Origin: Mesostigma viride
Taxonomy: Eukaryota > Streptophyta > Mesostigmatophyceae > Mesostigmatales > Mesostigmataceae
Assembly (NCBI GenBank): GCA_009746045.1
Contig: RPFO01000041.1
Coordinates: 2,462,613-2,526,612 of the forward strand
Reading direction: 5' to 3'
DNA: 64,000 bases
The notes beneath the pieces were generated by a model, which saw only the letters and a list, made by a program, of their open reading frames with translations, did not search any database and had not been told where the DNA came from. A program made the translations under genes and the position numbers. Below, piece after piece: positions 3,325 to 63,046 of this stretch. Within the stretch, counting starts at the first letter, position 1; each line of letters opens with the position of its first letter.

Positions 3325-3340
3325 CCTGCATATATATGGA
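3325..3340. repeat. Overlapping TSDs of two LINE insertions
   Basis: CCTGCATATATAT (3325-3337) is the right TSD of the minus LINE. TATATATGGA (3331-3340) is the left TSD of the plus LINE and recurs at 3671-3680. The two TSDs share TATATAT, so both copies entered the same target. Confidence 0.75.
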
Positions 3341-22097: not shown

Positions 22098-23021
22098 CAA
22101 CTAGGAACGTGCATCCCGTAACCAGGAACGTGTATCCCACAACTAGGAACGTGCTTCCCACAACCAGGAACGTGCTTCCCACCACCAGGAGCAAGTCTCC
22201 CACAAACAGGAACGTGTATCCCACAACCAGGAACGTGTTTCCCACCACAAGGAACAAGTATCCCACAACCAGGAACAAGTATCCCACAACCAGGAACTGC
22301 TATTCCACAACCAGGAATGTGCATGCCACAACCAGGAACTGCTATCCCACAACCAGGAACAAGTATCCCACAACCAGGAACAAGTATCCCACAACCAGGA
22401 ACAAGTATCCCACAACCAGGAACTGCTATTCCACAACCAGGAACGTGCATGCCACAACCAGGAACGACTATCCCACAACCAGGAACAAGTATCCCACAAC
22501 CAGAAACAAGTACCTCACAACCACAAACAAGTATCCCACAACTAGAATCACATCTCACAACCAGTCCTGAACACATCTCACAACCAGGAACAAGTATCCC
22601 ACAACCAGGAACAAGTATCCCACAACCTGGAACAAGTATCCAACAACCAGGAACAAGTATCCCACAACCTGGAACAAGTATCCCACAGCCACGAACACAT
22701 TCCACAACCAGGAACAAGTATCCCACAGCCACGAGCACATTCCACAACTAGGAACTGCTATCCCACAACTAGGAACACATCCCACAATCAAGAACTGCTA
22801 TCCGACAACCAGGAACGTGTATCCCACAACCGTGAACAAGTATCCCACAACCGTGAACAAGTATCCCACAACCAGGAACAAGTATCCCACAACCAGCAAC
22901 ACATCTCACAACCAGGAACAAGTATCCCACAACCAGGAACTGCTACCCCACAACCAGGAACAAGTATCCCACAACAAGGAACACATCCCACAACCAGGAA
23001 CGTGTATCCCACAACCAGTCG
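22098..23021 (+). repeat. Minisatellite, right block
   Basis: About 48 units of 18-20 bp, consensus CCCACAACCAGGAACAAGTAT, with variants GTGTATC, TGCTAT and ACATC. Same strand sense as 14213-14511. Confidence 0.9.
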
Positions 23022-29900: not shown

Positions 29901-31298
29901 GCCTGAGATGGCCATTCCCACAGTGTTACATTGTTTCCATGACGATGTGACTGCGTGTCATCCTGGTTATGCTAAGCTACTTCATGAGGTGCAGCAGAGG
30001 TTTTGGTGGCCTGGCCTTTATCAGGATGTTAAGGCCTATGTGGATTCCTGTGACTCCTGCCAGAGAAATAAGGTCAGGAACCAAGCCACGCCCATTTTCC
30101 CATGGCTATGCCCATTCCCCTGCGCCCTTGGATCAGTGTGACTATGGATTTTATCTGTGGTCTTCCCATGTCAGATGGTGGCAATGACAGGATCCTTGTG
30201 GTCATGGACAGGCTGTCCAGGATGTGCCATCTGATTCCTTGCAATACTCATCTCACCGCTGCACAGTGTGTGGATTTGTTTATGAAGGAGATCTACCGTC
30301 TGCACGGCATGCCTAGAGTGATCATCACTGATCAGGACCCCCTTTGGCTGTCAGGGTTTTGGAAGTCATTCTTTGACATCCTAGACACTAAGCTGGCATT
30401 CGGTGTGGCATACAGGTGTGCCAGTACTGGGGCGGTGGAGAGGATGAACAGAATTGTCAGGGAGTGTCAAAAGCACTATTGTACACACGACAACAAGGAC
30501 TGGGACAAGAAGATACCTTTCATAGAGTTCGCAATCAACAACTCTCCTCTGGCTCCTCACCAGATGTCCCCCTTCGTGATCTGCAATGGCCAGTGTCCCT
30601 TGACACCATTCGACTTGGAACTGCCTGACAGAGACGCTGAAGGCCCTTTCCAGCGACGTCTTGGTTCAGTCCAGCAGTTGTTGGCTTCCTTCCAGGAGGC
30701 TCACAGCATTGTGGCTACCCAGCTGTTGAGGACACAGGACAAGTACCTGACTAACGCCTGGCAGCAAACGGTGGCCAGTCATTCCTTTGTAGCTCCTGGG
30801 GACTTGGTGTTGCTGGAAGCCAACAGAGTGCTGCCTGAGAAGGAGCAATGCAGGAAACTGCAACCACTCTGGTTGGGTCCTTACCCAGTGTTGGCAACCT
30901 TCCACTATGGTACAGTGGTCCAGGTCCAAGTGCCTTCTCACTGGAAGCTCAGGAATAATATTTTTCACCTAGCCCAGCTGAAGCTGTACAGGCGCAACAC
31001 CTTACCAGGCAGATTGTCTGCCCCTTTGCCTTATGAATTGGATTCTGAGGGGGAGAAGATCTATGAAGTGGAGCGGTTGTTGGCTCACAGGGTGAAGGGG
31101 AAAGGTCGTACCAAACAGTTGCAGTTTAAGGTACACTGGAAGGGAGAGCTAGAGGTGACTGCTACGTGGCTGTGGTTGTCTGATCTCACCAACAGTCACT
31201 CTGCTGTACTAGAGTATTGTCAGCGTCATGGTATCACCTTGCCTGAGTGGTATGTCATGGGCTCTGAGCGGTGTGCTCCCCTTCATAGCTCCCAGTGA
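26964..31298 (+). pseudogene. Chromovirus Pol: PR-RT-RNase H-INT-chromodomain, frameshifted
   Basis: Protease: FMIDSGAGSNY near 27128 and ILGIPW. RT: VPKHDGGWRLCIDLRGLN (27976), FDLRHAFWQIR, MPMGASNSPA, YLDDILVHS (28396), with ~20 extra residues before YLDD. RNase H: RSDASQGAIG, then MTDHRPL and DALSRR. Integrase: HHCC finger with HPGYAKLL and CDSCQRNK (29950-30080), DDE core Asp in TMDFICGLP, Asp in ITDQDP, Glu in GAVERMNR. The end (IYEVERLLAHR ... LQFKVHWKG ... YCQRHG, 31057-31240) is a chromodomain, which in chromoviruses guides integration to marked chromatin. Frame breaks lie near 27862, 28670-28735, 29035 and 30105, each at a short homopolymer. All catalytic residues are present. It makes and inserts the cDNA. 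Confidence 0.9.
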
Positions 31299-36257: not shown

Positions 36258-36990
36258 ACACACACATGCACACACACACACACGCCCACATACTGCACAT
36301 GCACACAAATGTTCACACACACACGCCCACACGCCCACGTACTACACATGCACACAAATGTTCACACACACATGCACACACGCACACACATACACACATG
36401 CACACATGCACACATGCACACATGCACACATGCACACATGCACACATGCACACATGCACACATGCACGCATGCACACACGCACACACGCACACACGCACA
36501 CACGCCCACGTACTACACATGCACACAAATGTTCACACACACATGCACACACGCACACACATGCACACATGCACACACGCACACACGCACACACGCACAC
36601 ATGCACACACGCACACACGCACACACGCACACATGCACACACACACGCACACACGCACACACGCACACACGCACACACGCACACACGCACACACGCACAC
36701 ACGCACACATGCACACATGCACACATGCACACACGCACACACGCACACATGCACACACGCACACACGCACACACGCACACATGCACACATGCACACACGC
36801 ACACACGCACACACGCACACACGCACACACGCACACATGCACACATGCACACATGCACACACCCACGTGCGCACATGCACGCTAACACATGCGCACACAC
36901 TAACACACACATCGTCGTCAGAACACACATGCACACAAATGTGCACACACCCACGAGCACACGTGCACATGCATACAATCCCACACAAAC
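36258..36990. repeat. Octamer satellite (GCACACAY)n
   Basis: About 75 tandem units of GCACACAT or GCACACAC, with a few longer spacers that include GTACTACACATGCACACAAATGT. It gives long spurious Thr/His frames on the plus strand and Cys/Val frames on the minus strand. Confidence 0.9.
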
Positions 36991-46536: not shown

Positions 46537-47460
46537 TCATTCATCATCACTATAGGCGCCCCCAGGCTCGCAGTCTTGGCAGTACCACTCCCCCTTTGGC
46601 ACAGTTTCGAGGGTGAGTCCCGTGCACAGCATGTGGGCCCCCTGCACGCAATCGGTGCCACCACAGATGAGAAAGGGGTTGTGAGTTGTGTGTGGGGGGC
46701 CACCGCAGAACATGCACAGTCTAGCATCAACATCCATGTCATCCCCATCCTCATCCCCTGCCCCCCCTTCCTCATAGTGCACCCCCTTGCTGTATGTGCA
46801 GCGGTCCTGCTTGCCCTCCTTCCAGTGCCTTTTCTTCTTCTCTAACTTCCTTTTCATCTTGCGCCGCTTCCAGTCATGCTGCCCCTTGAGCTGCTGCTGC
46901 CACTCCCTCTTGGTGATGATGGTCCCCAGCTGCGCCTCGACAGCGGGGGTCACTGTCACACCCAGTTCCTCTGCATCCTCTAGCCACCACTGTTCACCGT
47001 GCTGCACGTGCAGTATGCCCACCGCGCATGCACCTGGGTACAGCCCTGCCCCAAACCCGCCCTTCCCACCGGGGACAGCCCTGATCTGCTGGGAGTGCAG
47101 GAACTCATTCCTGTTGCTGCTGGCATCGTGGGTACAAGCCTCCAGAATGTCCATCGTGGTGTACTTGTCCCAGACAGCCTTGACCAGCCCCAGCACATCC
47201 ACGGTCACCCCCTGCGGCGTGCTCGCCGCGACGGGCAGCCACGTGGTCCCACCCCACCCGGGCGTTGTGTCCCCCACCACAGAGCCACACCACTGCTGCT
47301 CAACATGCGGCTGGCTTGGATCCGCTTGCCGCACATAGTTAGGCCACTGCTCACACTTGTCGTGCTTGTTAAAGTAGTGCAGCAGTGCGTTGCCTAGTGC
47401 CCCCTTGAGGTGGACTGCCCCCATGTGCCCGTTGGCATGGACGCATGTGCGGAAGGAATC
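46537..47460 (-). pseudogene. Mutator-like transposase C-terminal part with PHD finger
   Basis: An open frame with an in-frame stop just beyond 47460; the visible ATG is 47424, but codons before it (DDSFRTCVHANGH) also fit. The start (ALLHYFNKHDKCEQWPN) and DILEACTHDASSNRNEFLH fit the C-terminal half of the PF20700-type Mutator transposase, where the Glu supplies the third DDE acidic residue. A Lys/Arg-rich linker (WKRRKMKRKLEKKKRHWKE) follows. The last ~55 residues are a PHD finger (CMFCGG ... CGGTDC ... HMLC ... WYCQDC). PHD fingers read histone tails, so the transposase may be directed to chromatin; that is inference. It is separated from the N-terminal part by the MITE at 47464-48234. Confidence 0.7.
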
Positions 47461-47463
47461 ATC

Positions 47464-48234
47464 AAGTTTCGTTTAAGTGGCCAGCCGGAGCGGCTGCTTA
47501 GGTTTTAGCGGACAAGTGTTCGAAGCGCGTCATTGGTGAATTACTAGGGAACTTGGGTTTCCCCGCGAAACTCCAACCGCACGTTCAGATTTCCAAATCT
47601 CAAGTTAAGTTCGGCGCAACTTTCTGAACGGGGGCAGTTGACGAGCAGCATTCCTCCGGACGAATGAATTGCGTTCCATACTTGCGCAAAATTTTGAAAG
47701 GTAGCTTGCGTGCAGCCCTACTAAAATTTGCGCGCACGTTCAGATTTCCAAATCTCAAGTAAATTTCGGCGGAACATTCTGAACGGGGGTAGTTGGCGGG
47801 CAGCGTTCCTCCAGACGAATGAAATGCGTTCCATACTAGCGCAAAATTTTGAAAGGTAGCTTGCGTGCAGCCCTACTAAAATTTGCGCGAAGTGTGGGAC
47901 TGAAAATTCGTAACGGAAACTGTTTGGTAGTTGCCGTCACTTCCTCTTGTGCAAACGTGTGGGAGTGAAAATTCGTAACGGAAACTTTTTGGTAGTTGCC
48001 GTCACTTCATTTTGCGCGAGTGTTGGGCTGAAAATTCGTAACGGAAACTTTTTGGTAGTTGGCGTCACTTCCTTTGGTTCGACTGAAAATTCGCTGAAAT
48101 TCGCTGAATTCGTACCGTAGCCTAATTTTTAGTACCTCGAAGTGACGGGGCACCTAAAAATTTGCCCACAAGTACACTTGGCAGCGCGCTCACTGGGAAA
48201 AATTGTACAGCCGCTCCGGCGGGCCACTTGAACG
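47464..48234. mobile_element. MITE-like insertion in the transposase gene
   Basis: Ends TTCGTTTAAGTGGCC-AGCC.. and the inverse of ..GGCCACTTGAACGAA, with TIRs of ~32 bp and a few differences. Inside: a 155-bp unit twice (47581-47735, 47736-47890), then a 63-65 bp unit three times (47892, 47957, 48020). It interrupts the transposase between LQF and LDDSFRTC. No clear TSD was found. Confidence 0.65.
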
Positions 48235-50160
48235 AATTGTAATGAACACATGGAGTTCACTGTGGGGCCATCTAGCACCCCCCTGAGCTTGCCCAGGTGC
48301 TCCTTCTTGAGCTTGGTCAGTGCATTGTACAAACGACCCCCCAAGTGATTGATGTCTTCCTTCTTCTCGGGGATGAGGCCTGCCTCTGCGAGGAAGTTGG
48401 CCTCTTTGACCCGTGCAAACCAGGTGGTGCCACCATCGCTAACCACCTCAACGGCGTACAAGCGTTGGGCTATTGGCTTTGGCAGCACCTCCTTCTCCCC
48501 TCCTGCCCCCTCCTCCCCTGCTGCCCCCTCCTCCCCTACTGCCCCCTCCTCCCCGTGCACCACCTGCCCCGTGCTGATGCCCGCAACCGTGGATGCCAGG
48601 TCACGCAGCAAGAAGACAGCCCCCTCCCCTTCCATGCTTCTACTACTGCCTGTGTGGTTGAGATAGCACGCATGGGGCCCAAGCTCCTTGCCTGCCTTGC
48701 TAGCCACCTCGCACGCCTGACACCACTTGCCAGAGACATGGTGCCCCACACACAGCCCAGTGCCATCGTGAATTATCGACTGCTGGCCAAAGGGGGATGC
48801 AAAACCCCCGGCGGTTGGGCCATGACCCATCCAGCGTCAGGCGGCAGCCCTGCCTCCCCTCCCCATCTACCCCAAAGCGCTTGTGCTCCTGCTCCCATGC
48901 CCGCACCGTCTCCCTATTCTCCATTAGCTGATCGTGCAGGTGCTCCTTGACAATAGACGTGGCAGCTGCGACATCCTTACGCCACGTGCTATGCCCAGTG
49001 GTGCACCTCAGCCCTAGGAGCGTGGCTAGCCGCACAAGCACGGGCTGGCTGATACCAAACAACACCCCAGCCACTGCCATGAGGCTGTTGAGCATGTTGC
49101 GATCCACACCTGGCCGCAGGTCCGAGTTAGGGGAGAGATGTCTTTGGTATACACCACCATGGCCCGCCATCCACCCCCGTGCAGCTGCTAATAGTGCACC
49201 ACAGCACCACAGAAGATGGGCTGCCACGATCAGACCCCGCATGCATGCATCTCAGGTTCTCCTATCTTGACAGTGCACATCTTGCATGACGGGCATGCCA
49301 TGGCACCAACAATGGCCTCAAGATTGTGTGCATCTACCAGCAAACGAGGCATCTCAAACGGCATGCCACGAGTAGGGCCAGGCGCAGTCTGACGCGAGGC
49401 CTGTACCTTGATGTGATTTCCTCGCGAGTCAATCTTCTTCGGCGATGGCCCACCATACAGCTCCGGTGCCTTTCTCTTGCGCCCAGTGCTTGACGGAGTT
49501 GAATGCGCACCACCCTCGCTGCCAGGGGTCGATCCAGTTGCTGGTGTTGCTGGGCTGCTTGTAATTGATGCCTTGCTTTTCTTTTTATTCGACTGTGTGC
49601 GCCGCCGACCTGGCCCTTTCTCTTTCGTCGAGCCGCGAGGGCGCCCCCTGCCCCTGCGTTGCGGCGTTGCTTCTGCCTCAAAATCGGTGCCTAACCACGC
49701 AGCGGATGTCTCCTTAACTAAGTCGCCGTGACCGCTGCGCCCCTGATCGTTTGCCGGGATTCGGCATTTCTTCTTTTTGCGGGCTAGTCTATACTGCACG
49801 AAAAAAATTCTATCTGTCCCCAGTCGGAATAAAACCTACGTAGATCCCCTGCTCATCGGGAAAACGTTTGCGGATAGCCTTGGTCATCTCTTCCGGAAGG
49901 GGCTTGGCACTTCCATCATCATTAATCCAGCCCAGCATGGCGGAAAACCAACGATAAGCAGCGTTCCTGAAAATGTTATTGGCATCATCGATGGCGGTTG
50001 GGGGTACGCGGTTGCAGCCAGCTGAACCGAGAGCAATAAGACTTTCCCGACTGCAAATACTTTCCAACGGGATTTCGCTATATCCGTTCGACATTTTCCA
50101 CGCTGAAACGGCCAACATGGCATCGATTTCACGCTGCATATCCACGCCCTGATCCGCCAT
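48235..50160 (-). pseudogene. Mutator-like transposase N-terminal and catalytic part
   Basis: Starts at ATG 50160 (MADQGVDMQREID). A 46-bp GT-AG intron (49794-49839) is likely. Exon 2 has a basic AT-hook-like segment (RRGRGRPRGS), then a zinc-binding start (CPSCKMCTVKIGE) seen before PF20700-type domains. The catalytic part includes VDRNMLNSLMAVAGVLFG, LTLDGSWPNRRG (first Asp), CQACE ... CYLNHTGSSRSMEGEGAV and VVSDGGTTWFARV (second Asp position). Low-complexity GEEGA repeats lie near 48495-48555. Frames break near 49240, where ATGC occurs three times, and near 48805 at a C-run; both look like small indels. These motifs fit a DDE cut-and-paste transposase. Likely inactive in this copy because of the MITE. 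Confidence 0.7.
49794..49839 (-). other. Predicted 46-bp intron in transposase
   Basis: Minus strand: donor TAC|GTAGGT (49839) and acceptor TTTTTTTCGTGCAG|TAT (49794). Removing it joins EQGIY to YRLARKKKK in phase and avoids the TAG at 49812. Confidence 0.5.
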
Positions 50161-50685: not shown

Positions 50686-50957
50686 ACTCTGATTTTACAC
50701 ATTTTAAGACACCCACCATCAATCCACATGTTTTTAACACTGTTTTGGACATAATCCAAGGTTGCCCTACCCTCGGCTATACTCTATACGGTGGACATTG
50801 TGGACACGATCGATGTATTGCATGTAATACTGAGAATGTAAACGTGCGCATGCATAATTGTGTGTATGTGTGTATATATGTGGCTGTATATTGGTTATGT
50901 TTACTTGGGTGCCTTCACTTTGATGCAAGTAATTATATATTTTAATATATATATTCA
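50686..50957 (+). mobile_element. Probable LINE 3' UTR and AT tail, plus strand
   Basis: The end TTCACTTTGATGCAAGTAAT.. followed by TATATTTTAATATATAT resembles the terminal motif of the RLE-LINE at 3341-3670. The 5' limit is not clear. Confidence 0.4.
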
Positions 50958-51163
50958 TTGAGAATGATAGATTACGGAGGTGAGATAGGCATGCAACATA
51001 AGGAAAAACCCGATAACTGGGAGAATAACCCTGAAGAAATTAATAGTAATCTGACACAGACATCCAAGGATCACGCCAGCGGCACAAGGTACAACTAACT
51101 ATACATCACAAAACTACACGCAGCAACAGCGCTGCCGGCCCACCATGCAGGCCTGGAAGGGAT

Positions 51164-53580
51164 CTAGACCGCATGGGTCGCGACAAAGTCGGCCCGGGTG
51201 CGGCGGAATAACACATCAGCCACGGTGCGAGTGAGGGCGAGTGACAGACGCTGCCGCCAATACGAGGACCACGTGCGGGCCGACCACGGGGCGGTCTGAC
51301 CCTCGAGGTCGAGGCGGTCTTCACGGCGCTGGCAGCACTCGTGGAAAAACTCCGCTGTCTTGGGGCCCATGGCCCCGAACTCCTCAAGGACAAAGGGGAT
51401 GACCCGGTGGGGCCCCACATTGCCGTAGGAGGCAAACTTGTCGCGCTCAGCCACAGCGGCAGCAGCGCCGGCATCCACAGCCGCCCGGAGGATGTGGCGA
51501 CCGGAAAGCGGCCGAGCCACGGAGACATCGATGAGCAGGTGGCAACCCTGCCCGTCGTAGTCAAGCACGGTAATGTCGGGGCGATGGTTGGGTGAGTAGA
51601 GGGCGGCCCCATCCGCGTCCTCGCACTTGATGGTGGAGTGGGGAAAGACCGACCGAACCATGGCACACACCACCCGGAGGAGAGCGGTATGGAGATAGAG
51701 GAACCAGTTCTGGTTCTGCTGGCCACCCATGCACGCGATGTAGTGCGTCCCAGTAGTATCCAGAGCAAGCCCGCAGCTGCCGCAGGACGCACCCGCCGTG
51801 ATGAGAGGTTGCGGGGCAAAGAGCTGGTGGCGGAGAGCGATGGCGTAAAGGGCCGGAACCAGTGTGAACAAAGGGCTCATGGGGAGGGCGCGCAGGAATG
51901 CGGACCCCACGCTCCCCTCAAGGGAAACGGAGTGAAGCCAAGCCTTCCCCTGATCGTTCAAGCTCGCATGCAGACCCATCCAGTCGGCACAGTGTAGTAT
52001 ACCCGCGTAGGTCTTTTGTTGTTTTTCATGAACGCAGGCAGGGAAGACACTAGGACTGACGACAGTGGACACGCCGGGCGTGCCCCGGGGCAGGCGACGG
52101 TGGACGGCCTGAGCGGGGCGGACGAGGTCGCAAGCCTGCTGGATCCCGAGGTAAGAATCCTGCACAGCCTGCACAAAGGGGAAGGGGGATGGGGTGACCA
52201 AGTCGGGAATGGCGCTGACGGCGCTGGGGACCAACCGGCGGATCTCCGCCCAGGCCTGAGCAACAGAGCCAAGGAAGGCGGCGGGGGCGAGGCGGGCGGC
52301 GCGGGTGAGCCCACACCCGCCCATGCGGCAGGGGAGGGTGGCCAAGCGCATGGAGTGAGCTGGCAGGCTAGGGCCGGGGAGGAGCACCTGCAAGGCGGCC
52401 TGAATGCGCTCGTCATGGCCTTCCGCGGCAAGCCGCACCAAGTGGGGGGGAGCGCCACGGAGCCAGTGAACCACCCGCGGGTGGGCGCAAAACCACAGGA
52501 GGAGCCCTTTGGTCTGGGGGTCCTTGAGGCGCGCCCAAGTCTCGAGGACATGGGTGCGCTGTTCCACGGTGGCCCGGAGCTCCTCTTCGACGTAGTCAGG
52601 GTCACCCACAGGGACGCCCAGGCACGAGAAACCACGCGCCCGCGCCAATGCCCCCGGGATAGCCGCGGGGAAGCCAGAGCAGTCCCCCTGGGGCGAAAAG
52701 ACTGCACACTTGGGGAGGGTGAGCCGAAGGTTGATGGCCGCCATGGCCACTTCAAGGGCAGCCAGGGCGGCAACCACAGCGTCGGCCGGGCCAAGGGCAT
52801 GGATATCGTCCATATAGGCGAGGAGCACGACATCCGGGTGCGCAGCGTGGACACCTTGGAGAGCCTTGTGCAGCGGGGCAGACAGGTAAAAGGGGCCGAG
52901 GGGGTCACCTTGCTGGGTTCCCGTGCGGGAAGCGATGTCGGCGAACGTCCCATCCTCCATGAGGAAGGAGAGTTGAGTGGGTTCGCCGTAGCAGGCTGCT
53001 GTCCACGCAAGAAGGTCAGGGAACGCCTCGCCGACGGCCTCAAAGATGCTAGCCTTGGTGACAGCATTGAACGCATTGTGGCAATCCACCTTCAGCGCCA
53101 CATGGGTCGGATGCGTCTCGAGGTAGGCCTGAACTGTGTGCACGATGATGTCGCTGCCCCCTTTGGTGGCGACGCCAAGCTGGGCCGCGACGGACTCCTC
53201 AGTATCACTCCGGTTGGGGCAGAAGTAGGCGCGAAACTCGGGGGCCTTTTGGCGACAAATGACCTTACTCACCAGCTTGCGTAGGACCTCGCCGCAAGCA
53301 ATGGGACGAACGCGGCCAGCAGGCGGGGGGACGTCGTCTTTCAGGAGGGCAATGAGGCGTGCCCCAGCCAGCCAAGGGCGCGCCGCGGGGGCCAGGGACC
53401 CCGCGGCCAAGTCGGCGGCAGCCTCAAAGAGTGCGGTCGCCCCGCCATGGCCCGCCATCACGGAGAGGTGCTCGTAGCGCCAGCCTGAGGGGCCGGTGGA
53501 GGAGGCGTTCGGCAGATCCTTCAGCACAGCCGTGAAGATGTCCAGGTCCAGGACAATAGGCGGGGGCGGGGGGTGGCCGG
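51164..53580 (-). CDS. LINE polyprotein part 3: reverse transcriptase, CCHC, restriction-like endonuclease
   Basis: The frame carries on from the zinc-finger part after a shift near 53575; the first codons seen (IVLDLDIFTAVLKDLPNASS) have no ATG. Counting from 53527: RT motif 1 RPIACGEVLRKL (~74-85), motif A VDCHNAFNA (Asp ~148), motif B GTQQGDPLGP (~203-212), motif C AYMDDIHAL (YMDD ~238-241). Connector region to ~570. Zinc motif CGSCGLALDTTGTHYIAC (~582-599). Endonuclease RPD (~649-651) and Asp in LLIDVSV (~667). This is the R2/CRE/NeSL-like architecture: the endonuclease nicks DNA and RT copies element RNA on the free 3' end. All core residues are present. Confidence 0.85.
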
Positions 53581-55110
53581 GGCGGGCACCGCAAAGGCCG
53601 GTTCGTCGGGGTGAAGGTCGCGCAAAGCCTGCAGGGTCGGGGGAGTGGAGGGAGCCAACGCGGTCAGTTCAAGCTTTTGCATGGCCCGGCTCAATTCACC
53701 TACCTTCACCAACCGCATGACGTCAGCTTCCACCCGGGCAAAGGAGGCGGCCCCCGACACCCGGGTGGAGGCCGGAGGCTGCAGCGCCCACAGCCCTTCC
53801 CAATCCCCGAGGAGGAACCGCCGGCAGCGAGCGATGACCGCACCCTGTACGCCACGCACGCCCCGCTCCAACGGCGCTAAGAGGAGCCGGGGGGTGACGA
53901 GAAACAGCTTGTGGCCGAGTTCGTCGAGAGGGTGACTATGCATCCGGGCCAGGGAAAGCAGGGCGCAGCGCGTAAACAAGCTCCGGGCGCGGTGAGGGAC
54001 GTCCGGGAGCGTCATGCAAGGGTTGCGCGCACAGGCGGCAAAAGGGAGCGTGGCCAGGAATGCCCAGCCTGCCGAGAGGTCCCCCGGATCGCTCGTACCC
54101 TGCGATGCCGGTGGAGGGGCAGGGGCCGACCGAGGGGCCGCCCCGGACCGGGAGGCCGGTGCGGCCGCCGGGCCGCCGGGCAGGCCGTTCTGGGGGGTTT
54201 GGCGGCGGCACTGCCGCTCATGCTGGTACCGCCCGTGGATCGAAAAAATCCGCTGGCAATGGGCTGCCGGGCAGCGGTAGCAGTCCATGGCGCGCATGGC
54301 GGCCTCCGTGATGTGGGGGTGGGAAGCCCGAATGTGCACCAGCAACGAATTCCGGTTGGGCAGGCGCGCGCCACACGGGTCACCAAGGGGACCATCGACT
54401 TGGCAATAATGGAAGCCATCTGAGGGGGTGCGCCCACCCGGTTGGGCCGGCCCGGGTCGAGAGGGGGAGGGGTCGGGAGCACCCTCAGCCAGAGGAACTA
54501 CAGCTGCAGCGGAACCCAGGGCGGGGCCGGCCGCCGGGCGGTCAGCAGGGCTCGTGGCAGCCGAGGACAAGACCGGCGCGGGGACGGCCCCCACGGCCGG
54601 GAGGGGGGCGCTGGAGGAGGCAGCCAAGCCGGCGCGCGACCCACGACCACGCACAGGGGAGGCAGGTGTCGGGGCAGGCGCGTGGGACTGGCGGCGCACG
54701 GACACGGGCGAGGGCCCCAGCGGGAGAACGCCAGGAGGCAAGGGGGAAAGGACCGCGGCCCGGCAAAGGGGGCAGGTGGCGGAGGTCGCGTGCAAGCTCG
54801 TGGCGATGCAAGCTTGATGGAAGACGTGGCCGCAAGCAGGGAGGCGGCAGAGACCGTCACCAGGGCGAGGCAGGTCCAAGCAGATGGGGCAGGAGGGGCC
54901 GCTGGCAGTGACATCCACCAAGTGGGCCGGCCCGTAGTGGGCGGGCGCCGCGTCCCACCCCAGCTCCCAGCTCGGCAGTCGGGCGATCTCATCGGCGGAG
55001 AGAAGACGGCGGCGCGGACCAGCAGGGTGCCAGACATGGGGGATGCCCGCAAGCTCGAGCACATCGTGCAAGATGGCGGGCACGGCCGCACCCGCGCTCA
55101 GCTCAAGAAC
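53521..55110 (-). CDS. LINE polyprotein part 2: RING-H2 and C2H2 zinc fingers
   Basis: Follows part 1 by a shift at the 9-C run near 55115 and overlaps part 3. Counting from 55083, residues 65-107 form a RING-H2 finger (C65, C68, C84, H86, H89, C92, C104, C107; CPICLD ... CGHVFHQAC ... CPLC). A Pro/Ala-rich stretch follows, then C2H2-like fingers (HYCQVDGPLGDPCG ... HIRASH; YRCPAAHC ... HGRYQHERQC, ~225-300), then a helical region leading to RT. C2H2 fingers before RT bind target DNA in R2. A RING-H2 usually marks E3 ubiquitin ligases; inside a LINE this is unusual, and its activity is only inferred. Confidence 0.8.
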   Translation of the reverse strand, partial: VLELSAGAAVPAILHDVLELAGIPHVWHPAGPRRRLLSADEIARLPSWELGWDAAPAHYGPAHLVDVTASGPSCPICLDLPRPGDGLCRLPACGHVFHQACIATSLHATSATCPLCRAAVLSPLPPGVLPLGPSPVSVRRQSHAPAPTPASPVRGRGSRAGLAASSSAPLPAVGAVPAPVLSSAATSPADRPAAGPALGSAAAVVPLAEGAPDPSPSRPGPAQPGGRTPSDGFHYCQVDGPLGDPCGARLPNRNSLLVHIRASHPHITEAAMRAMDCYRCPAAHCQRIFSIHGRYQHERQCRRQTPQNGLPGGPAAAPASRSGAAPRSAPAPPPASQGTSDPGDLSAGWAFLATLPFAACARNPCMTLPDVPHRARSLFTRCALLSLARMHSHPLDELGHKLFLVTPRLLLAPLERGVRGVQGAVIARCRRFLLGDWEGLWALQPPASTRVSGAASFARVEADVMRLVKVGELSRAMQKLELTALAPSTPPTLQALRDLHPDEPAFAVPAPATPRPRLLSWTWTSSRLC

Positions 55111-56369
55111 ACGCCCCCCCCCGCATCGTACAGAACCAGGTCGCCGGCGTGCACGGTGACAGGAGCCCCGAAGTCAACGCGCAGGCGGGCGGCTTGCGCT
55201 GGGGTGACCGCCGTAGTCAAGCGCCCGTGGGCCTGCGCAACAAGGCCGGCCGAGCCGGGCCCGGCAGAGGCAAGAAACGTGTGCAGCTGAGGGCGATCGA
55301 GCAAGGCGTGGTCGGTGGCCCCCCCAGCGAGATATGTCGCACGGGCGGCCTGCTGGGCCTGCACGGCAAGCCCTGTAGCAAAGAGCACCACCGCCTGCGC
55401 CACTTGAGCGTCCAGATTCAGGAGCCATTCTTGGCGCACCGCGGGCAGGTGCCAAGGCAGGCGGCCGCCGGCATGGTAGTCCTCGAGGACAAACCCCCAA
55501 AGCGTGGAGGCAAGGACAGGGGGGGAGGCTGCCTGCAGCATGTGCCGGACACGAACCACAAGGGCACTAAATTCAGGGGGCCGTGGGAGCGTAGGAAACG
55601 CCGCGTGCAAGCCGACAGCGTCCAACAGCAAGGGGCAATACAGCCAAGAGAACGTGGCGTGCCGGAGCGCGCTGACGCCCGCAATGTTGGTGGGGGGCCA
55701 AACGGAGAAGTCGTGGGACCCAAGCGCGGCCGACCAGGGGCCCACCACAGGAGTCGCCGCAGGGTGTCCCACAGCCTCAGGGAGGAGAGCCGCCAGGGAC
55801 CCCTCAAGCACAGGAGGACGCAGGTCAGTGGCCACCGCCGTGCTGGCCGGAGGTGGATCCCCAGAGCTAGGCGGGGCAGGGCCAGGGGACCCCGCGGAGG
55901 GGCCGGACGTGACGGCGCGGGGAGAGCGGGAGCACGGTGTGGAACCCTCCACGAGGTCCGCAAGGCCCAGGAGAGGGTCCAGCGAGGGGCTGCGGGAGGG
56001 GGCGCGGGCCGAATGGGATCCCGGGGTCGACACGGCCGCGCGTCGGGAGCCTAGGGACGGCCGAGGCGGGGCCACGCAATGAGGGCACGCCCAAGGACCC
56101 GGGGGAGGCAGCCGGAAGAGGGGCGGGACCAAGCAGCGCGTGTGCCAGCCGCATTGGCACGAATCACACACAAGGAGACGGGGGGCATCCTCACCACTGT
56201 GGCAGACCTCGCACACAAGCGAGAGTGGCACAGGGGCGCCACGACCGCCGTCGTCCAGGTCGCCCATCTCCTGCAGGTGCGCCGCGATGCGTAAGGACCG
56301 ACGCGGCGCAGGGGCGCCACTAGGCAGCGCATCCCGCGCCCGGGAGGTGCGGCGTCGTGAAGGAGGCAT
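55098..56369 (-). CDS. LINE polyprotein part 1: PHD finger
   Basis: ATG at 56369 (MPPSRRRTSRARDAL); the open frame extends upstream, but only into the G-rich 5' UTR. Residues ~53-98 form a PHD finger (CEVCHSGED ... CDSCQCGWHTRCL ... WACPHC, C4HC3). A Ser/Pro/Arg-rich linker and then an alpha-helical ~220-residue region (HATFSWLYCPLLLDAVGLHA ...) follow. The frame ends at a stop just after the 9-C run, where part 2 takes over in another frame. PHD fingers bind histone H3 tails; a chromatin-targeting role is inference. The second copy at 61750-62922 keeps the same start. Confidence 0.8.
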   Translation of the reverse strand: MPPSRRRTSRARDALPSGAPAPRRSLRIAAHLQEMGDLDDGGRGAPVPLSLVCEVCHSGEDAPRLLVCDSCQCGWHTRCLVPPLFRLPPPGPWACPHCVAPPRPSLGSRRAAVSTPGSHSARAPSRSPSLDPLLGLADLVEGSTPCSRSPRAVTSGPSAGSPGPAPPSSGDPPPASTAVATDLRPPVLEGSLAALLPEAVGHPAATPVVGPWSAALGSHDFSVWPPTNIAGVSALRHATFSWLYCPLLLDAVGLHAAFPTLPRPPEFSALVVRVRHMLQAASPPVLASTLWGFVLEDYHAGGRLPWHLPAVRQEWLLNLDAQVAQAVVLFATGLAVQAQQAARATYLAGGATDHALLDRPQLHTFLASAGPGSAGLVAQAHGRLTTAVTPAQAARLRVDFGAPVTVHAGDLVLYDAGGGVFLS

Positions 56370-56424
56370 GGGGGAGGTGCGTAAAACAACGGAACCGGAA
56401 GCGCGGGGGGAGAGCGAGATGCGG

Positions 56425-56495
56425 ACGCGGGGGGTTTGGGGGGCGTGCCCCCCAAGCGGGGGGTTTGGGGGGCGGCAGCCCCCCAACGCGGGGCG
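56425..56495 (-). promoter_or_regulatory. G-run/C-run region at LINE 5' end (possible G-quadruplex)
   Basis: The plus strand has four runs of 5-6 G (GGGGTTTGGGGGG ... CGGGGGGTTTGGGGGG) interleaved with CCCCCC runs. It can form a G-quadruplex or strong stems just before the LINE start. Repeated in the second copy near 62980-63030. Confidence 0.5.
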
Positions 56496-56497
56496 GC

Positions 56498-59400
56498 CGC
56501 GGTGCCGCACCTCGGCGCAGGTTTTTTCAGCTGTGCATGGAGAAAAAAACGTGTCTCAATCCAGGAACCCCCGTCGGTTCATCATGTCAGCCTAGAAAAC
56601 TGGAGCGGTGGAGCCACAACTAACGGGAAAGCCGCATTCAAATTCGCCTAGCCCACGGGTCACAATTGGCCGACAGGTAGATGCAGCCAGCCCCGGGCGT
56701 GTCGCAGACAGTAATCACTACCGTAGGCCGCGGTGCCGCACCTCGGCGCAGGTTTTTTCAGCTGTGCATGGAGAAAAAAACGTGTCTCAATCCAGGAACC
56801 CCCGTCGGTTCATCATGTCAGCCTAGAAAACTGGAGCGGTGGAGCCACAACTAACGGGAAAGCCGCATTCAAATTCGCCTAGCCCACGGGTCACAATTGG
56901 CCGACAGGTAGATGCAGCCAGCCCCGGGCGTGTCGCAGACAGTAATCACTACCGTAGGCCGCGGTGCCGCACCTCGGCGCAGGTTTTTTCAGCTGTGCAT
57001 GGAGAAAAAAACGTGTCTCAATCCAGGAACCCCCGTCGGTTCATCATGTCAGCCTAGAAAACTGGAGCGGTGGAGCCACAACTAACGGGAAAGCCGCATT
57101 CAAATTCGCCTAGCCCACGGGTCACAATTGGCCGACAGGTAGATGCAGCCAGCCCCGGGCGTGTCGCAGACAGTAATCACTACCGTAGGCCGCGGTGCCG
57201 CACCTCGGCGCAGGTTTTTTCAGCTGTGCATGGAGAAAAAAACGTGTCTCAATCCAGGAACCCCCGTCGGTTCATCATGTCAGCCTAGAAAACTGGAGCG
57301 GTGGAGCCACAACTAACGGGAAAGCCGCATTCAAATTCGCCTAGCCCACGGGTCACAATTGGCCGACAGGTAGATGCAGCCAGCCCCGGGCGTGTCGCAG
57401 ACAGTAATCACTACCGTAGGCCGCGGTGCCGCACCTCGGCGCAGGTTTTTTCAGCTGTGCATGGAGAAAAAAACGTGTCTCAATCCAGGAACCCCCGTCG
57501 GTTCATCATGTCAGCCTAGAAAACTGGAGCGGTGGAGCCACAACTAACGGGAAAGCCGCATTCAAATTCGCCTAGCCCACGGGTCACAATTGGCCGACAG
57601 GTAGATGCAGCCAGCCCCGGGCGTGTCGCAGACAGTAATCACTACCGTAGGCCGCGGTGCCGCACCTCGGCGCAGGTTTTTTCAGCTGTGCATGGAGAAA
57701 AAAACGTGTCTCAATCCAGGAACCCCCGTCGGTTCATCATGTCAGCCTAGAAAACTGGAGCGGTGGAGCCACAACTAACGGGAAAGCCGCATTCAAATTC
57801 GCCTAGCCCACGGGTCACAATTGGCCGACAGGTAGATGCAGCCAGCCCCGGGCGTGTCGCAGACAGTAATCACTACCGTAGGCCGCGGTGCCGCACCTCG
57901 GCGCAGGTTTTTTCAGCTGTGCATGGAGAAAAAAACGTGTCTCAATCCAGGAACCCCCGTCGGTTCATCATGTCAGCCTAGAAAACTGGAGCGGTGGAGC
58001 CACAACTAACGGGAAAGCCGCATTCAAATTCGCCTAGCCCACGGGTCACAATTGGCCGACAGGTAGATGCAGCCAGCCCCGGGCGTGTCGCAGACAGTAA
58101 TCACTACCGTAGGCCGCGGTGCCGCACCTCGGCGCAGGTTTTTTCAGCTGTGCATGGAGAAAAAAACGTGTCTCAATCCAGGAACCCCCGTCGGTTCATC
58201 ATGTCAGCCTAGAAAACTGGAGCGGTGGAGCCACAACTAACGGGAAAGCCGCATTCAAATTCGCCTAGCCCACGGGTCACAATTGGCCGACAGGTAGATG
58301 CAGCCAGCCCCGGGCGTGTCGCAGACAGTAATCACTACCGTAGGCCGCGGTGCCGCACCTCGGCGCAGGTTTTTTCAGCTGTGCATGGAGAAAAAAACGT
58401 GTCTCAATCCAGGAACCCCCGTCGGTTCATCATGTCAGCCTAGAAAACTGGAGCGGTGGAGCCACAACTAACGGGAAAGCCGCATTCAAATTCGCCTAGC
58501 CCACGGGTCACAATTGGCCGACAGGTAGATGCAGCCAGCCCCGGGCGTGTCGCAGACAGTAATCACTACCGTAGGCCGCGGTGCCGCACCTCGGCGCAGG
58601 TTTTTTCAGCTGTGCATGGAGAAAAAAACGTGTCTCAATCCAGGAACCCCCGTCGGTTCATCATGTCAGCCTAGAAAACTGGAGCGGTGGAGCCACAACT
58701 AACGGGAAAGCCGCATTCAAATTCGCCTAGCCCACGGGTCACAATTGGCCGACAGGTAGATGCAGCCAGCCCCGGGCGTGTCGCAGACAGTAATCACTAC
58801 CGTAGGCCGCGGTGCCGCACCTCGGCGCAGGTTTTTTCAGCTGTGCATGGAGAAAAAAACGTGTCTCAATCCAGGAACCCCCGTCGGTTCATCATGTCAG
58901 CCTAGAAAACTGGAGCGGTGGAGCCACAACTAACGGGAAAGCCGCATTCAAATTCGCCTAGCCCACGGGTCACAATTGGCCGACAGGTAGATGCAGCCAG
59001 CCCCGGGCGTGTCGCAGACAGTAATCACTACCGTAGGCCGCGGTGCCGCACCTCGGCGCAGGTTTTTTCAGCTGTGCATGGAGAAAAAAACGTGTCTCAA
59101 TCCAGGAACCCCCGTCGGTTCATCATGTCAGCCTAGAAAACTGGAGCGGTGGAGCCACAACTAACGGGAAAGCCGCATTCAAATTCGCCTAGCCCACGGG
59201 TCACAATTGGCCGACAGGTAGATGCAGCCAGCCCCGGCGTGTCGCAGACAGTAATCACTACCGTAGGCCGCGGTGCCGCACCTCGGCGCAGGTTTTTTCA
59301 GCTGTGCATGGAGAAAAAAACGTGTCTCAATCCAGGAACCCCCGTCGGTTCATCATGTCAGCCTAGAAAACTGGAGCGGTGGAGCCACAACTAACGGGAA

Positions 59401-61416
59401 AGCCGCATTCAAATTCGCCTAGCCCACGGGTCACAATTGGCCGACAGGTAGATGCAGCCAGCCCCGGGCGTGTCGCAGACAGTAATCACTACCGTAGGCC
59501 GCGGTGCCGCACCTCGGCGCAGGTTTTTTCAGCTGTGCATGGAGAAAAAAACGTGTCTCAATCCAGGAACCCCCGTCGGTTCATCATGTCAGCCTAGAAA
59601 ACTGGAGCGGTGGAGCCACAACTAACGGGAAAGCCGCATTCAAATTCGCCTAGCCCACGGGTCACAATTGGCCGACAGGTAGATGCAGCCAGCCCCGGCG
59701 TGTCGCAGACAGTAATCACTACCGTAGGCCGCGGTGCCGCACCTCGGCGCAGGTTTTTTCAGCTGTGCATGGAGAAAAAAACGTGTCTCAATCCAGGAAC
59801 CCCCGTCGGTTCATCATGTCAGCCTAGAAAACTGGAGCGGTGGAGCCACAACTAACGGGAAAGCCGCATTCAAATTCGCCTAGCCCACGGGTCACAATTG
59901 GCCGACAGGTAGATGCAGCCAGCCCCGGGCGTGTCGCAGACAGTAATCACTACCGTAGGCCGCGGTGCCGCACCTCGGCGCAGGTTTTTTCAGCTGTGCA
60001 TGGAGAAAAAAACGTGTCTCAATCCAGGAACCCCCGTCGGTTCATCATGTCAGCCTAGAAAACTGGAGCGGTGGAGCCACAACTAACGGGAAAGCCGCAT
60101 TCAAATTCGCCTAGCCCACGGGTCACAATTGGCCGACAGGTAGATGCAGCCAGCCCCGGCGTGTCGCAGACAGTAATCACTACGTAGGCCGCGGTGCCGC
60201 ACCTCGGCGCAGGTTTTTTCAGCTGTGCATGGAGAAAAAAACGTGTCTCAATCCAGGAACCCCCGTCGGTTCATCATGTCAGCCTAGAAAACTGGAGCGG
60301 TGGAGCCACAACTAACGGGAAAGCCGCATTCAAATTCGCCTAGCCCACGGGTCACAATTGGCCGACAGGTAGATGCAGCCAGCCCCGGGCGTGTCGCAGA
60401 CAGTAATCACTACGTAGGCCGCGGTGCCGCACCTCGGCGCAGGTTTTTTCAGCTGTGCATGGAGAAAAAAACGTGTCTCAATCCAGGAACCCCCGTCGGT
60501 TCATCATGTCAGCCTAGAAAACTGGAGCGGTGGAGCCACAACTAACGGGAAAGCCGCATTCAAATTCGCCTAGCCCACGGGTCACAATTGGCCGACAGGT
60601 AGATGCAGCCAGCCCCGGGCGTGTCGCAGACAGTAATCACTACGTAGGCCGCGGTGCCGCACCTCGGCGCAGGTTTTTTCAGCTGTGCATGGAGAAAAAA
60701 ACGTGTCTCAATCCAGGAACCCCCGTCGGTTCATCATGTCAGCCTAGAAAACTGGAGCGGTGGAGCCACAACTAACGGGAAAGCCGCATTCAAATTCGCC
60801 TAGCCCACGGGTCACAATTGGCCGACAGGTAGATGCAGCCAGCCCCGGGCGTGTCGCAGACAGTAATCACTACCGTAGGCCGCGGTGCCGCACCTCGGCG
60901 CAGGTTTTTTCAGCTGTGCATGGAGAAAAAAACGTGTCTCAATCCAGGAACCCCCGTCGGTTCATCATGTCAGCCTAGAAAACTGGAGCGGTGGAGCCAC
61001 AACTAACGGGAAAGCCGCATTCAAATTCGCCTAGCCCACGGGTCACAATTGGCCGACAGGTAGATGCAGCCAGCCCCGGCGTGTCGCAGACAGTAATCAC
61101 TACCGTAGGCCGCGGTGCCGCACCTCGGCGCAGGTTTTTTCAGCTGTGCATGGAGAAAAAAACGTGTCTCAATCCAGGAACCCCCGTCGGTTCATCATGT
61201 CAGCCTAGAAAACTGGAGCGGTGGAGCCACAACTAACGGGAAAGCCGCATTCAAATTCGCCTAGCCCACGGGTCACAATTGGCCGACAGGTAGATGCAGC
61301 CAGCCCCGGGCGTGTCGCAGACAGTAATCACTACCGTAGGCCGCGGTGCCGCACCTCGGCGCAGGTTTTTTCAGCTGTGCATGGAGAAAAAAACGTGTCT
61401 CAATCCAGGAACCCCC
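56498..61416. repeat. 231-bp tandem repeat, about 21 copies
   Basis: Units start GGCCGCGGTGCCGCACC and include CAGCTGTGCATGGAG and GGCCGACAGGTAGATGCAG. The first eleven are exactly 231 bp and appear identical. Later units alternate with 229-230 bp variants (loss of a G in CCCGGG or a C in ACCGTA). The array begins exactly at the LINE 5' end and stops at 61416 within a unit, where LINE sequence begins. Each unit gives a spurious 72-codon frame because 231 is divisible by 3. Confidence 0.95.
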
Positions 61417-63046
61417 AAGCAGGGGGCGGCAGAGACCGTCACCAGGGCGAGGCAGGTCCAAGCAGATGGGGGCAGGAGGGGCCGCTGGCAGTGACATCCA
61501 CCAATGGGCCGGCCCGTAGTGGCGGGCGCCGGTCCCACCCAGCTCCCGCTCGGCAGTCGGGCGATCTCATCGGCGGAGAGAAAGACGGCGGCGCGGACCA
61601 GCAGGGTGCCAAGCATGGGGGATGCCCGCAAGCTCGAGCACATCGTGCAAGATGGCGGGCACGGCCGCACCCGCGCTCAGCTCAAGAACACGCCCCCCCC
61701 CGCATCGTACAGAACAGGTCGCGGCGTGCACGGTGAAGGAGCCCCGAAGTCAACGCGCAGGCGGGGCTTGCGCTGGGGTGACCGCCGTAGTCAAGCGCCC
61801 GTGGGCCTGCGCAACAAGGCCGGCCGAGCCGGGCCCGGCAGAGGCAAGAAACGTGTGCAGCTGAGGGCGATCGAGCAAGGCGTGGTCGGTGGCCCCCAGC
61901 GGATATTCGCACGGCGGCCTGCTGGGCTGCACGGCAAGCCCTGTAGCAAAGAGCACCACCGTGCGCCACTTGAGCGCAGATTCAGGAGCCATTCTTGGCG
62001 CACGCGGGCAGGTGCAAGGCAGGCGGCCGCCGGCATGGTAGTCCTCGAGGACAAACCCCAAAGCGTGGAGGCAAGGAACAGGGGGGGAGGCTGCCTGCAG
62101 CATGTGCCGGACACGAACCACAAAGGGCACTAAATTCAGGGGGCCGTGGGAGCGTAGGAAACCCGCGTGCAAGCCGACAGCGTCCAACAGCAAGGGGCAG
62201 TAACAGCCAAGAGAACGTGGCGTGCCGGAGCGCGCTGACGCCCGCAATGTTGGTGGGGGCCAAAAACGGAGAAGTCGTGGGACCAAGCGCGCCGACAGGG
62301 GCCCACCACAGGAGTCGCCGCAGGGTGTCCCACAGCTCAGGAGGGAGCCGCCAGGGACCCTCAAGCACAGGAGGACGCAGGTCAGTGGCCACCGCCGTGC
62401 TGGCCGGAGGTGGATCCCCAGGCTAGGCGGGGCAGGGCCAGGGGACCCCGCGGAGGGGCCGGACGTGACGGCGGCGGGGAGAGCGGAGCACGGTGTGGAA
62501 CCTCCACGAGGTCCGCAAGGCCCAGGAGAGGGTCCAGCGGGGGCTGCGGGAAGGGGCGCGGGCCGAATGGGATCCCGGGTCGACACGGCCGCGCGTCGGG
62601 AGCCTAGGACCGGCCGAGGCGGGGCCACGCAATGAGGGCACGCCCAAGGACCCGGGGGAGGCAGCCGGAAGAGGGGCGGGACCAAGCAGCGCGTGTGCCA
62701 GCCGCATTGGCACGAATCACACACAAGGAGACGGGGGGCATCCTCACCACTGTGGCAGACCTCGCACACAAGCGAGAGTGGCACAGGGGCGCCACGACCG
62801 CCGTCGTCCAGGTCGCCCATCTCCTGCAGGTGCGCGCGATGCGTAAGGACCGAACGCGGCGCAGGGGCGCCACTAGGCAGCGGCACCCGCGCCCGGGAGG
62901 TGCGGCGTCGTGAAGGAGGCATGGGGAGGTGCGTAAAAACAACGGAACCGAAGCGCGGGGGGGAGAGCGAGATGCGAGCGGGGTTTTGGGGGCGTGCCCC
63001 CCAAGCGGGGGGTTTGGGGGGGCGGCAGCCCCACGGGGGCGGCCGC
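61417..63046 (-). mobile_element. Second 5' portion of the PHD-RING LINE
   Basis: Corresponds to about 54832-56497 (5' UTR, PHD part and the start of the RING part), then ends abruptly at 61417 inside a 231-bp unit. Differences from the first copy are mainly single-base deletions and insertions. Confidence 0.8.
61750..62922 (-). pseudogene. LINE PHD-finger ORF, second copy with indels
   Basis: ATG at 62922 as in the first copy. The PHD finger (CEVCHSGED ... WACPHC) is intact at residues ~53-98. Further on the frame wanders because of many indels, while the DNA still aligns with 55150-56369. Either a degenerating copy or poorly polished sequence; the excess of indels over substitutions favours the latter. 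Confidence 0.65.

Follow-up and report, generated by a model that had tools for sequence, protein, structure and literature searches.

Does a LINE in Mesostigma viride encode, in one protein, a chromatin reader and a potential ubiquitin ligase together with its copying machinery, or do these parts belong to a separate gene? The question is raised by a locus in a 64,000-nucleotide stretch of contig RPFO01000041.1 (the window), where an initial annotation had described a LINE polyprotein with PHD, RING-H2 and C2H2 fingers, a reverse transcriptase (RT) and a restriction-like endonuclease (RLE), linked across two homopolymer frameshifts. The element is a young, high-copy LINE, and we put at about 0.88 the probability that it is a recently active RLE-type non-LTR retrotransposon with one large protein. 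It is larger than first described, extending over ~50954-56494 with tandem 231-bp 5' units up to 61416, and comprises, together with neighbouring related sequence in the window:

61413-63040, minus: second partial copy, 3'-truncated and indel-rich (95.8% identity, 55 gap positions)
56495-61416, minus: 5' UTR tandem units, 231 bp x 21.3, 5' of the element (TRF, 99% matches)
56370-56494, minus: unique 5' UTR, with a G-rich repeat at 56425-56493 (period 29, 2.2 copies)
55098-56369, minus: first frame of the window copy, ATG at 56369, with the PHD and the first part of the middle region (stop-to-stop 55098-56555)
56076-56213, minus: PHD finger, C4HC3 (PF00628, E 2.9e-7, above curated cut-off; Pfam, raw frame)
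53521-55173, minus: second frame of the window copy, with remaining middle region, RING-H2, finger pair and pre-RT region
54760-54894, minus: RING-H2 finger (PF13639 zf-RING_2, E 5.1e-10, above curated cut-off; Pfam, raw frame)
54184-54402, minus, limits approximate: zinc-finger pair, C2H2 + C2HC (PF00096, E 0.0039, below cut-off; 56% identity to sister family)
51164-53668, minus: third frame of the window copy, with RT, linker, CCHC and RLE
52613-53320, minus: RT domain, YMDD at 52805-52816 (PF00078 RVT_1, E 7.2e-13, above curated cut-off; Pfam, raw frame)
51731-51784, minus: CCHC knuckle, C-x2-C-x9-H-x3-C (from sequence, aligned to the R2 knuckle)
51425-51583, minus: RLE core, RPD-x15-D ... 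K-x3-Y (from sequence, aligned to the R2 RLE)
50954-51163, minus: 3' UTR, terminal sequence ...CATTCTCAATGAA, then target TATAT
1945-3432, minus: linker/RLE piece of a sister family (linker+RLE 70% amino-acid identity)

The window locus is locally messy, with the second partial copy lying at the outer end of the tandem units.

Domains of the element protein

As annotated, the domains lie on one strand and in one order: PHD, RING-H2, a weak zinc-finger pair, RT, CCHC knuckle and RLE follow one another on the minus strand (51164-56555), the middle region between PHD and RING-H2 being without a Pfam match. The PHD finger, the RING-H2 finger and the RT were each recovered above the Pfam cut-offs, and the RLE was recognised by alignment with R2. 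For this alignment we used a profile running from the RT to the C terminus (A1, the element and 19 relatives), which matched the solved R2 protein 9nl3 across RT, CCHC knuckle and RLE (E 1.9e-30), bearing out the YMDD RT, CCHC motif and RPD...D endonuclease; L1 ORF2p was aligned over the RT alone (E 3.3e-12). The knuckle, with x9/x3 spacing, is close but not identical to the x7-8/x4 form C-x2-3-C-x7-8-H-x4-C given in PMC5678591, and the K-x3-Y of the RLE resembles K-x2-K-Y as published, except that the second K is substituted. The element therefore has an RT of LINE type, a CCHC knuckle of variant spacing before the RLE, and a PD...D with distant K and Y, seen in the sequence and in the R2 alignment, for which catalysis is predicted. 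In a search of the element protein (P0030) for an APE endonuclease, no endonuclease family appeared at E up to 5.

The C2H2 fingers fared less uniformly: a pair is present, and both fingers are retained in the sister family, but the zf-C2H2 match falls below the cut-off, and while one finger has the spacing C-x9-C-x12-H-x4-H, the second ends in Cys (C2HC).

Linkage of the PHD and RING fingers to the reverse transcriptase

Genome-wide, an exact tag of the 3' end, which includes ATATAT, matched 925 times in 440 Mb, and PHD-region tags matched 111 times, with 0 matches for the reversed-pattern control in either case. In at least 34 of 54 listed RT copies, a PHD-region tag of matching orientation lay 2-4 kb upstream, 32 of these at 2.5-2.6 kb; the count is a lower bound because 100 of the 111 PHD tags were used. 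The tag was not in place for the other 20 copies, 8 of which are visibly 5'-truncated. Across 31 loci, the loci read being the best-scoring copies and not a random sample, the mean pairwise difference was 0.36%.

Five 5'-complete copies were read (window, L031, L029+L032, L021+L033 and L022+L034). One of them, L031, runs from PHD to RLE in a single frame of 1718 codons; the frame is broken in the window and the three further copies. The ATG equivalent to window position 56369 is out of frame in L031, and translation would therefore begin no earlier than codon 18 of the open frame.

Additionally, the domain order recurs in a sister family whose segments are 56-71% identical to those of the element; this family keeps 8/8 PHD and 8/8 RING zinc ligands, with Pfam matches in copy L041 at 2.3e-10 (PHD) and 4.9e-11 (RING). 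Further sister copies were less complete, L042 breaking off past the RING and L043 having part of the PHD only; L038 and L039, which had been picked for frame length, were set aside, one being 5'-truncated and the other rearranged. NG86 dN/dS between the families was 0.10 for the PHD, 0.18 for the middle region, 0.14 for the RING, 0.20 for the fingers, 0.21 for the RT and 0.14 for linker and RLE, values that are rough, given saturation at synonymous sites (dS 1.4-3.0) and the use of a single sequence per segment; both the PHD and the RING are under constraint, within an architecture common to the two families. An RT tree built from 23 cores places the two families together as sisters (99/100) and apart from two R2 sequences, which are the tree's sole named members; the midpoint root serves for drawing only, and a long-branch warning applies to P0028/P0029 with R2.

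These observations bear on whether the PHD and RING stem from a host gene that an insertion or the assembly joined to a LINE. The messiness of the window locus would suit such a fusion; the equal spacing and orientation at many loci, repeated in the diverged sister family, and the open frame shared in L031 argue so strongly the other way that we exclude it and give it next to no credence. The PHD and RING are, we are nearly certain, integral to the element, and the annotated RLE-type LINE with both fingers in its protein is upheld by linkage, frame and sister family.

The two homopolymer frameshifts are real in the window copy, where they are located in G/C runs at which the frames overlap, but they are absent from some other copies, including L031. 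We read junction 2 in 31 copies and junction 1 in 14 distinct copies, dropping rows with unmatched anchors. The window form was found at junction 1 in 10/14 distinct copies (11/15 with the window's partial second copy), a frequency that, like the position of the breaks at frame overlaps, would accord with programmed frameshifts yielding separate proteins. However, the breaks are one-base run-length differences that are mixed across haplotypes and even within SNP haplotypes; L007 and L022 have 1287 bp of identical 3' flank in common, yet differ in run length; in 34 of 54 copies the alignment starts no earlier than residue 26, and junction 2 is unbroken in all 12 of these read for it; and the breaks of the sister family lie at other places. 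We accordingly regard functional frame breaks as improbable and retain the reading of one large protein.

Insertion sites and tandem 5' units

Insertion sites begin with TATAT and have varied flanks. TATAT came next in 29 of the 30 3' ends read in fetched loci, a table without L015 and L018 (anchor unmatched), and all 7 truncated copies tested have target-site duplications beginning TATAT, exact over 5-11 bp; L018, a copy without the usual 3' end, was omitted from this second table for that reason, and the 11-base match of L001 overlaps the element's first bases. Copies thus combine 5' truncation, a shared 3' end and target-site duplications, as in target-primed insertion, and we consider insertion by RLE and target-primed reverse transcription very probable.

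Among the matches listed, contigs C1-C95 have 11 PHD-tag copies, and in 9 of these 1-21 exact unit tags lie ~324-394 nt upstream. The tandem 5' units are inside the element: in the full copy L034/L022, units of the 231-bp type lie between the two copies of a 16-bp target-site duplication, no unit was found upstream of eight 5'-truncated copies in the stretch fetched, and the sister family has, in the corresponding position, a different unit of 170 bp. Were the array an independent satellite or a gene array targeted by the LINE, arrays apart from the element would be explained, and among those listed no exact PHD tag lies beside the arrays at C2:3113866-3120604, C1:279254-279513, C169:395406-395679 and on C177. 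Set against the three observations above, this leaves that origin very unlikely, and for the element's own units we reject it. A known RNA gene array was likewise dropped, as the window, including the 231-bp array, has no Rfam match at gathering score, whether to rRNA, U2 or otherwise.

Possible roles of the fingers and comparison with known LINEs

The best solved relative of the PHD finger is the KDM5B PHD 2mny (E 1.1e-13), and those of the RING-H2 include the E3 ligases Arkadia and RNF165. The RING motif CxIC...CPLCR is kept in both families, at positions that we take to be the E2-contacting residues and the linchpin Arg. Judging from these similarities, we lean slightly towards a PHD that binds a histone tail and, to the same degree, towards a RING that is an active ligase; that both are put to use at the insertion site is a more doubtful proposition. 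The 231-bp units may act as promoter; the RLE would nick TA-rich DNA, with the RT priming from the nick in target-primed reverse transcription; and the finger pair could help to bind RNA or target. The PHD, closest to KDM5-type fingers, might dock the complex on histone H3 tails, and the RING might recruit an E2 and ubiquitinate nearby chromatin or host proteins, or else the polypeptide of which it is part. Tentatively, and at less than even odds, the element may carry its own chromatin reader and ubiquitin ligase in one polypeptide with its copying machinery, and might dock on H3 tails where the DNA is TA-rich and ubiquitinate histones or silencing factors there, which would enable insertion or expression.

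Zinc fingers often have no reader or enzyme function, and the PHD and RING could instead be modules that bind zinc and serve structure or the binding of nucleic acid or protein. The authors of PMC4120745 were aware of no work on the function of a PHD in a LINE, and we consider such modules a serious minority possibility; the best scores of both fingers, against chromatin PHDs and E3 RINGs, and the retention of CxIC...CPLCR in both families favour reader and ligase. If these roles hold, nature would here offer a testable example of a selfish element that employs chromatin-reading and ubiquitin chemistry in target-primed insertion, by way of a PHD-RING in cis with RT and RLE that is under constraint in two high-copy families within a single genome.

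R2 likeness holds for the catalytic half, by the R2 alignment, but not for the sites, which are TATAT instead of 28S rRNA genes (no rRNA match within the window), nor for a Myb domain, which had no match in the element protein (Pfam, P0030). Insertion into U2 snRNA genes, as in Utopia, was not seen either, the sites being TATAT and the window having no Rfam match. Among relatives outside the genome, RT proteins of Cymbomonas tetramitiformis (P0002, P0005-P0009) are 36-43% identical in the RT/RLE part over 60-94% of the query. No PHD or RING was matched in 5/5 of these (P0002, P0005, P0006, P0008, P0009; Pfam), or in any of the 15 outside relatives scanned of 29, some being cut gene models; in Cymbomonas relatives, inspection by eye had suggested a Tudor-like reader where the element has its PHD, and Pfam gave this no support. 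Homologues of the N-terminal part were absent among the best 8000 and 7997 candidates by shared words that were scored. The literature searched gave no report of PHD and RING in an RLE LINE, and none of a restriction-like endonuclease in Chlamydomonas.

The annotation's view of a reader plus ligase as unusual stands, within the papers searched, for the union of PHD and RING with RT and RLE; the PHD in LINEs was already known. LINEs have picked up various accessory domains, among them PHD and esterase in CR1/L2 and, in certain RLE LINEs, Ulp1 protease and RNase H. R2, R4, CRE, NeSL, HERO and Utopia likewise have RT, linker, CCHC and RLE in one protein with zinc fingers before the RT, and RLE LINEs such as R2 prefer particular, often repetitive sites; to this plan the element adds a PHD, a middle region and a RING-H2 before the fingers, the 231-bp tandem 5' units and TATAT sites. 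CR1/L2 LINEs similarly have a PHD, in ORF1 (PMC4120745), but are APE-type, whereas the element has an RLE and a RING and no APE match. NeSL and Utopia have likewise acquired a domain from ubiquitin/SUMO biology, theirs being a Ulp1-like protease (PMC4640811) and the element's a RING finger. In mouse L1 the 5' units are ~200 bp long and have turned over between families. As in that monomeric promoter (PMC10620060), the element's tandem units vary in number by copy and differ by family; these family-specific units, a putative promoter, thus parallel the mouse L1 arrangement in a distant LINE class and another host.

Domain order and membership of the PHD and RING fingers

Three overlapping open frames in the window, which covers positions 2462613-2526612 of contig C1579, encode the element's domains:

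51164-53668, minus strand, RT-bearing open frame, overlapping the neighbouring frame
53521-55173, minus strand, RING-bearing open frame, overlapping both neighbouring frames
55098-56555, minus strand, PHD-bearing open frame, overlapping the neighbouring frame

The profile search proposed in the initial annotation recovered the PHD, RING and restriction-like endonuclease (RLE) described there. Pfam placed a PHD finger (PF00628, 2.9e-7), a RING-H2 finger (PF13639, 5.1e-10) and a reverse transcriptase (RT; PF00078, 7.2e-13) above their curated cut-offs, in the 5' to 3' order PHD, RING, RT on the minus strand. The RT is followed by a CCHC knuckle and an endonuclease core, RPD...D...K-x3-Y, for which the RLE features described in part of PMC5678591 served as reference. 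A profile of the RT-to-C-terminus part with 19 of its 29 homologues aligned to the solved R2 protein 9nl3 through the knuckle and RLE (1.9e-30), and to L1 ORF2p within the RT only (3.3e-12). The domain set annotated on one strand and in one order was therefore confirmed by Pfam or by the R2 alignment, except for the C2H2 fingers, a pair between RING and RT whose Pfam signal is weak and below cut-off (zf-C2H2, 0.0039). Between PHD and RING, the protein's middle region had no Pfam or NCBIfam match, and none among the best 60 of 159 PDB hits.

Searching the window's own genome (440 Mb, 2243 contigs) with tblastn, we found 54 RT-frame copies at 99–100% identity among the matches listed. At least 34 of these have an exact PHD-region tag 2–4 kb upstream in the same orientation, a lower bound because the pairing drew on 100 of the 111 genome tags; in 32 of the 34, the distance is 2526–2629 nt. 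Eight of the 20 copies lacking a tag are visibly 5'-truncated. One copy, L031, holds PHD, RING, fingers, RT, CCHC and RLE in a single 1718-codon frame (first Met at codon 18), and is the one uninterrupted copy, as sought by the initial annotation, among five 5'-complete copies read; the frame is broken somewhere in the other four (window, L029+L032, L021+L033, L022+L034). Together with a sister family described below, tag spacing and orientation and the L031 frame uphold the annotation: both fingers are integral parts of the LINE.

Frame breaks and element ends

The two annotated frameshifts are present in the window copy as one-base differences in run length, but other copies carry the alternative length. 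Of 31 loci read across junction 2 (near 53570), 19 match the window copy and 12 carry the alternative; for junction 1 (near 55115), the split is 10 to 4 among 14 distinct copies, and a partial second copy in the window sides with the 10. Alignments of the 54 listed RT copies start at residue 1 in 19, residue 26 in 34 and residue 29 in one. Junction 2 run lengths are mixed inside SNP haplotypes. Furthermore, loci L007 and L022 differ at junction 2, yet 1287 bp of their 3' flanks is identical; they look like one insertion assembled twice, and L021 and L030 may be another such pair. This mixing and the L007/L022 difference favour run-length error or fast slippage over a lineage trait or programmed frameshifting.

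The element's limits had been annotated as 51164..56369; the domains lie inside, but the element extends further, to a 3' end, a 5' UTR and 231-bp tandem units upstream of it. Thirty 3' ends reading ...CATTCTCAATGAA occur in the fetched loci, and TATAT follows 29 of them, against a background frequency of 0.0012 per position (window 1-50900). In all seven 5'-truncated copies tested, the 5' flank ends with a repeat of the 3' flank's first 5–11 bases, which start with TATAT; this indicates that TATAT comes from the target and is duplicated when the element inserts. Genome-wide, 925 exact 3'-end tags versus 111 PHD tags match the expectation from frequent 5' truncation. Judged by their 3' or 5' flanks, several insertions (L002, L013, L021, L030; L003, L004, L007, L022) adjoin a common repeat entered at an identical TATAT, which suggests insertion hot spots within other repeats. 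Fragments of the sister family or of another copy also flank L002, L003, L007, L013, L019, L021, L022, L023, L025, L028 and L030; nested insertion into TA-rich tails might explain this clustering.

The 231-bp units number 21.3 copies in the window and 2.6 in L034. In L034/L022 they are part of the element, since a 16-bp duplication, TATATGTAAGGTTGTG, encloses them on both sides. On contigs C1–C95, exact unit tags, between 1 and 21 of them, sit about 324–394 nt upstream of 9 of the 11 PHD tags. Unit tags total 1457, and some arrays (for example C2:3113866-3120604) lack an adjoining exact PHD tag. The sister family's unit differs, at 170 bp, and L041 has 2.5 copies of it. By analogy with the monomeric promoter of mouse L1, as portrayed in part of PMC10620060, we infer that the 231-bp units may act as a promoter. 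Past the window copy's array, a partial copy at 61413-63032 (95.8%, 55 gaps) is truncated on its 3' side and rich in indels; noisy 231-bp units run on to 64546 in the extended window (L044), and a third copy, truncated on its 3' side, follows at 64547-68704 (99.9%); the noise in 61413-64546 suggests an unpolished or misjoined stretch.

Elsewhere in the window, an ORF at 46537-47472 (minus) terminates with another PHD finger (PF00628, 4.9e-6), and a Mutator-like transposase ORF lies nearby at 48129-48836 (PF20700, 1.1e-13); perhaps the two make up a PHD-bearing DNA transposon. Two elements read as Ty3/gypsy type, one with protease, RT and RNase H (4578-6842, minus), the other with integrase, Tf2-type SH3 and chromodomain (28957-31298, plus). 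Given this chromodomain and the PHDs, domains of chromatin-reader type occur in more than one of the mobile elements in the window. Long simple arrays comprise 77 copies of the 8-mer CACACATG (36261-36880) and 44 of the 21-bp CAACCAGGAACGTGTATCCCA (22098-23018).

Age, relatives and constraint

Pairwise difference among 31 loci is low (mean 0.36%, median 0.23%), indicating recent activity. Among 29 RT-frame homologues, the best has 50% identity over 95% of the query and the best named, from Cymbomonas tetramitiformis, 43% over 94%; further Cymbomonas proteins reach 48–50% over short stretches. The host is therefore probably a green alga. No PHD or RING was found in the 15 homologues scanned, some of which are partial models. 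The RT phylogeny suggested in the initial annotation (23 cores) grouped the window and sister families (99/100) apart from two R2 sequences, its only named LINE members; most of its deep forks are poorly resolved, and the tree was flagged for long branches.

The sister family's linker/RLE piece gave 86 listed matches, the window's own included. Among the loci read (L038–L043), L040 and L041 have both PHD and RING, L043 has RING and part of the PHD, and L042 is cut off downstream of RING; L041, the sole sister copy put through Pfam, scored 2.3e-10 for PHD and 4.9e-11 for RING. We compared L031 with sister segments from L041 (PHD, middle, RING, fingers), L038 (RT) and the window's sister piece (linker and RLE), at 56–71% identity, with 8/8 zinc ligands retained in each of PHD and RING. 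NG86 dN/dS was 0.10 for PHD, 0.18 for the middle, 0.14 for RING, 0.20 for the finger pair, 0.21 for RT and 0.14 for linker and RLE; PHD and RING thus look about as constrained as the catalytic parts, although these values are rough because synonymous change is saturated and each segment is one sequence.

Proposed mechanism and comparison with known LINEs

Drawing on these results and on known RLE LINE biology, we propose that transcription would start from the 5' tandem units, that the RNA would be translated as one protein able to bind it, and that the RLE would nick the TA-rich target before target-primed reverse transcription. The closest PHD relatives are those of KDM5B and KDM5A, then CHD4, KDM5-type, BAZ2B and others. 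PHD fingers of the KDM5B/KDM5A, CHD4 and BAZ2B type read the H3 N-terminus, making docking on the H3 tail our leading guess. Both families retain the RING motif CxIC...CPLCR, features we take to be E2-contacting, which makes it plausible that the RING acts as a ubiquitin ligase, perhaps on histones, host silencing factors or the element's own protein.

The initial annotation had called a chromatin reader plus potential ligase ahead of RT unusual; open-licence PubMed Central papers yielded no report of RING, or PHD plus RING, in a LINE. The 'ring finger' in the relevant part of PMC5678591 belongs to the RT fold. Other accessory domains, according to excerpts of PMC4640811, are a Ulp1-like protease in nematode NeSL and one Utopia, and RNase H in oomycete Utopia. 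In the excerpted text of PMC4120745, whose authors knew of no functional work on a LINE PHD, CR1 and L2 LINEs carry PHD fingers in ORF1, with a proposed targeting role.
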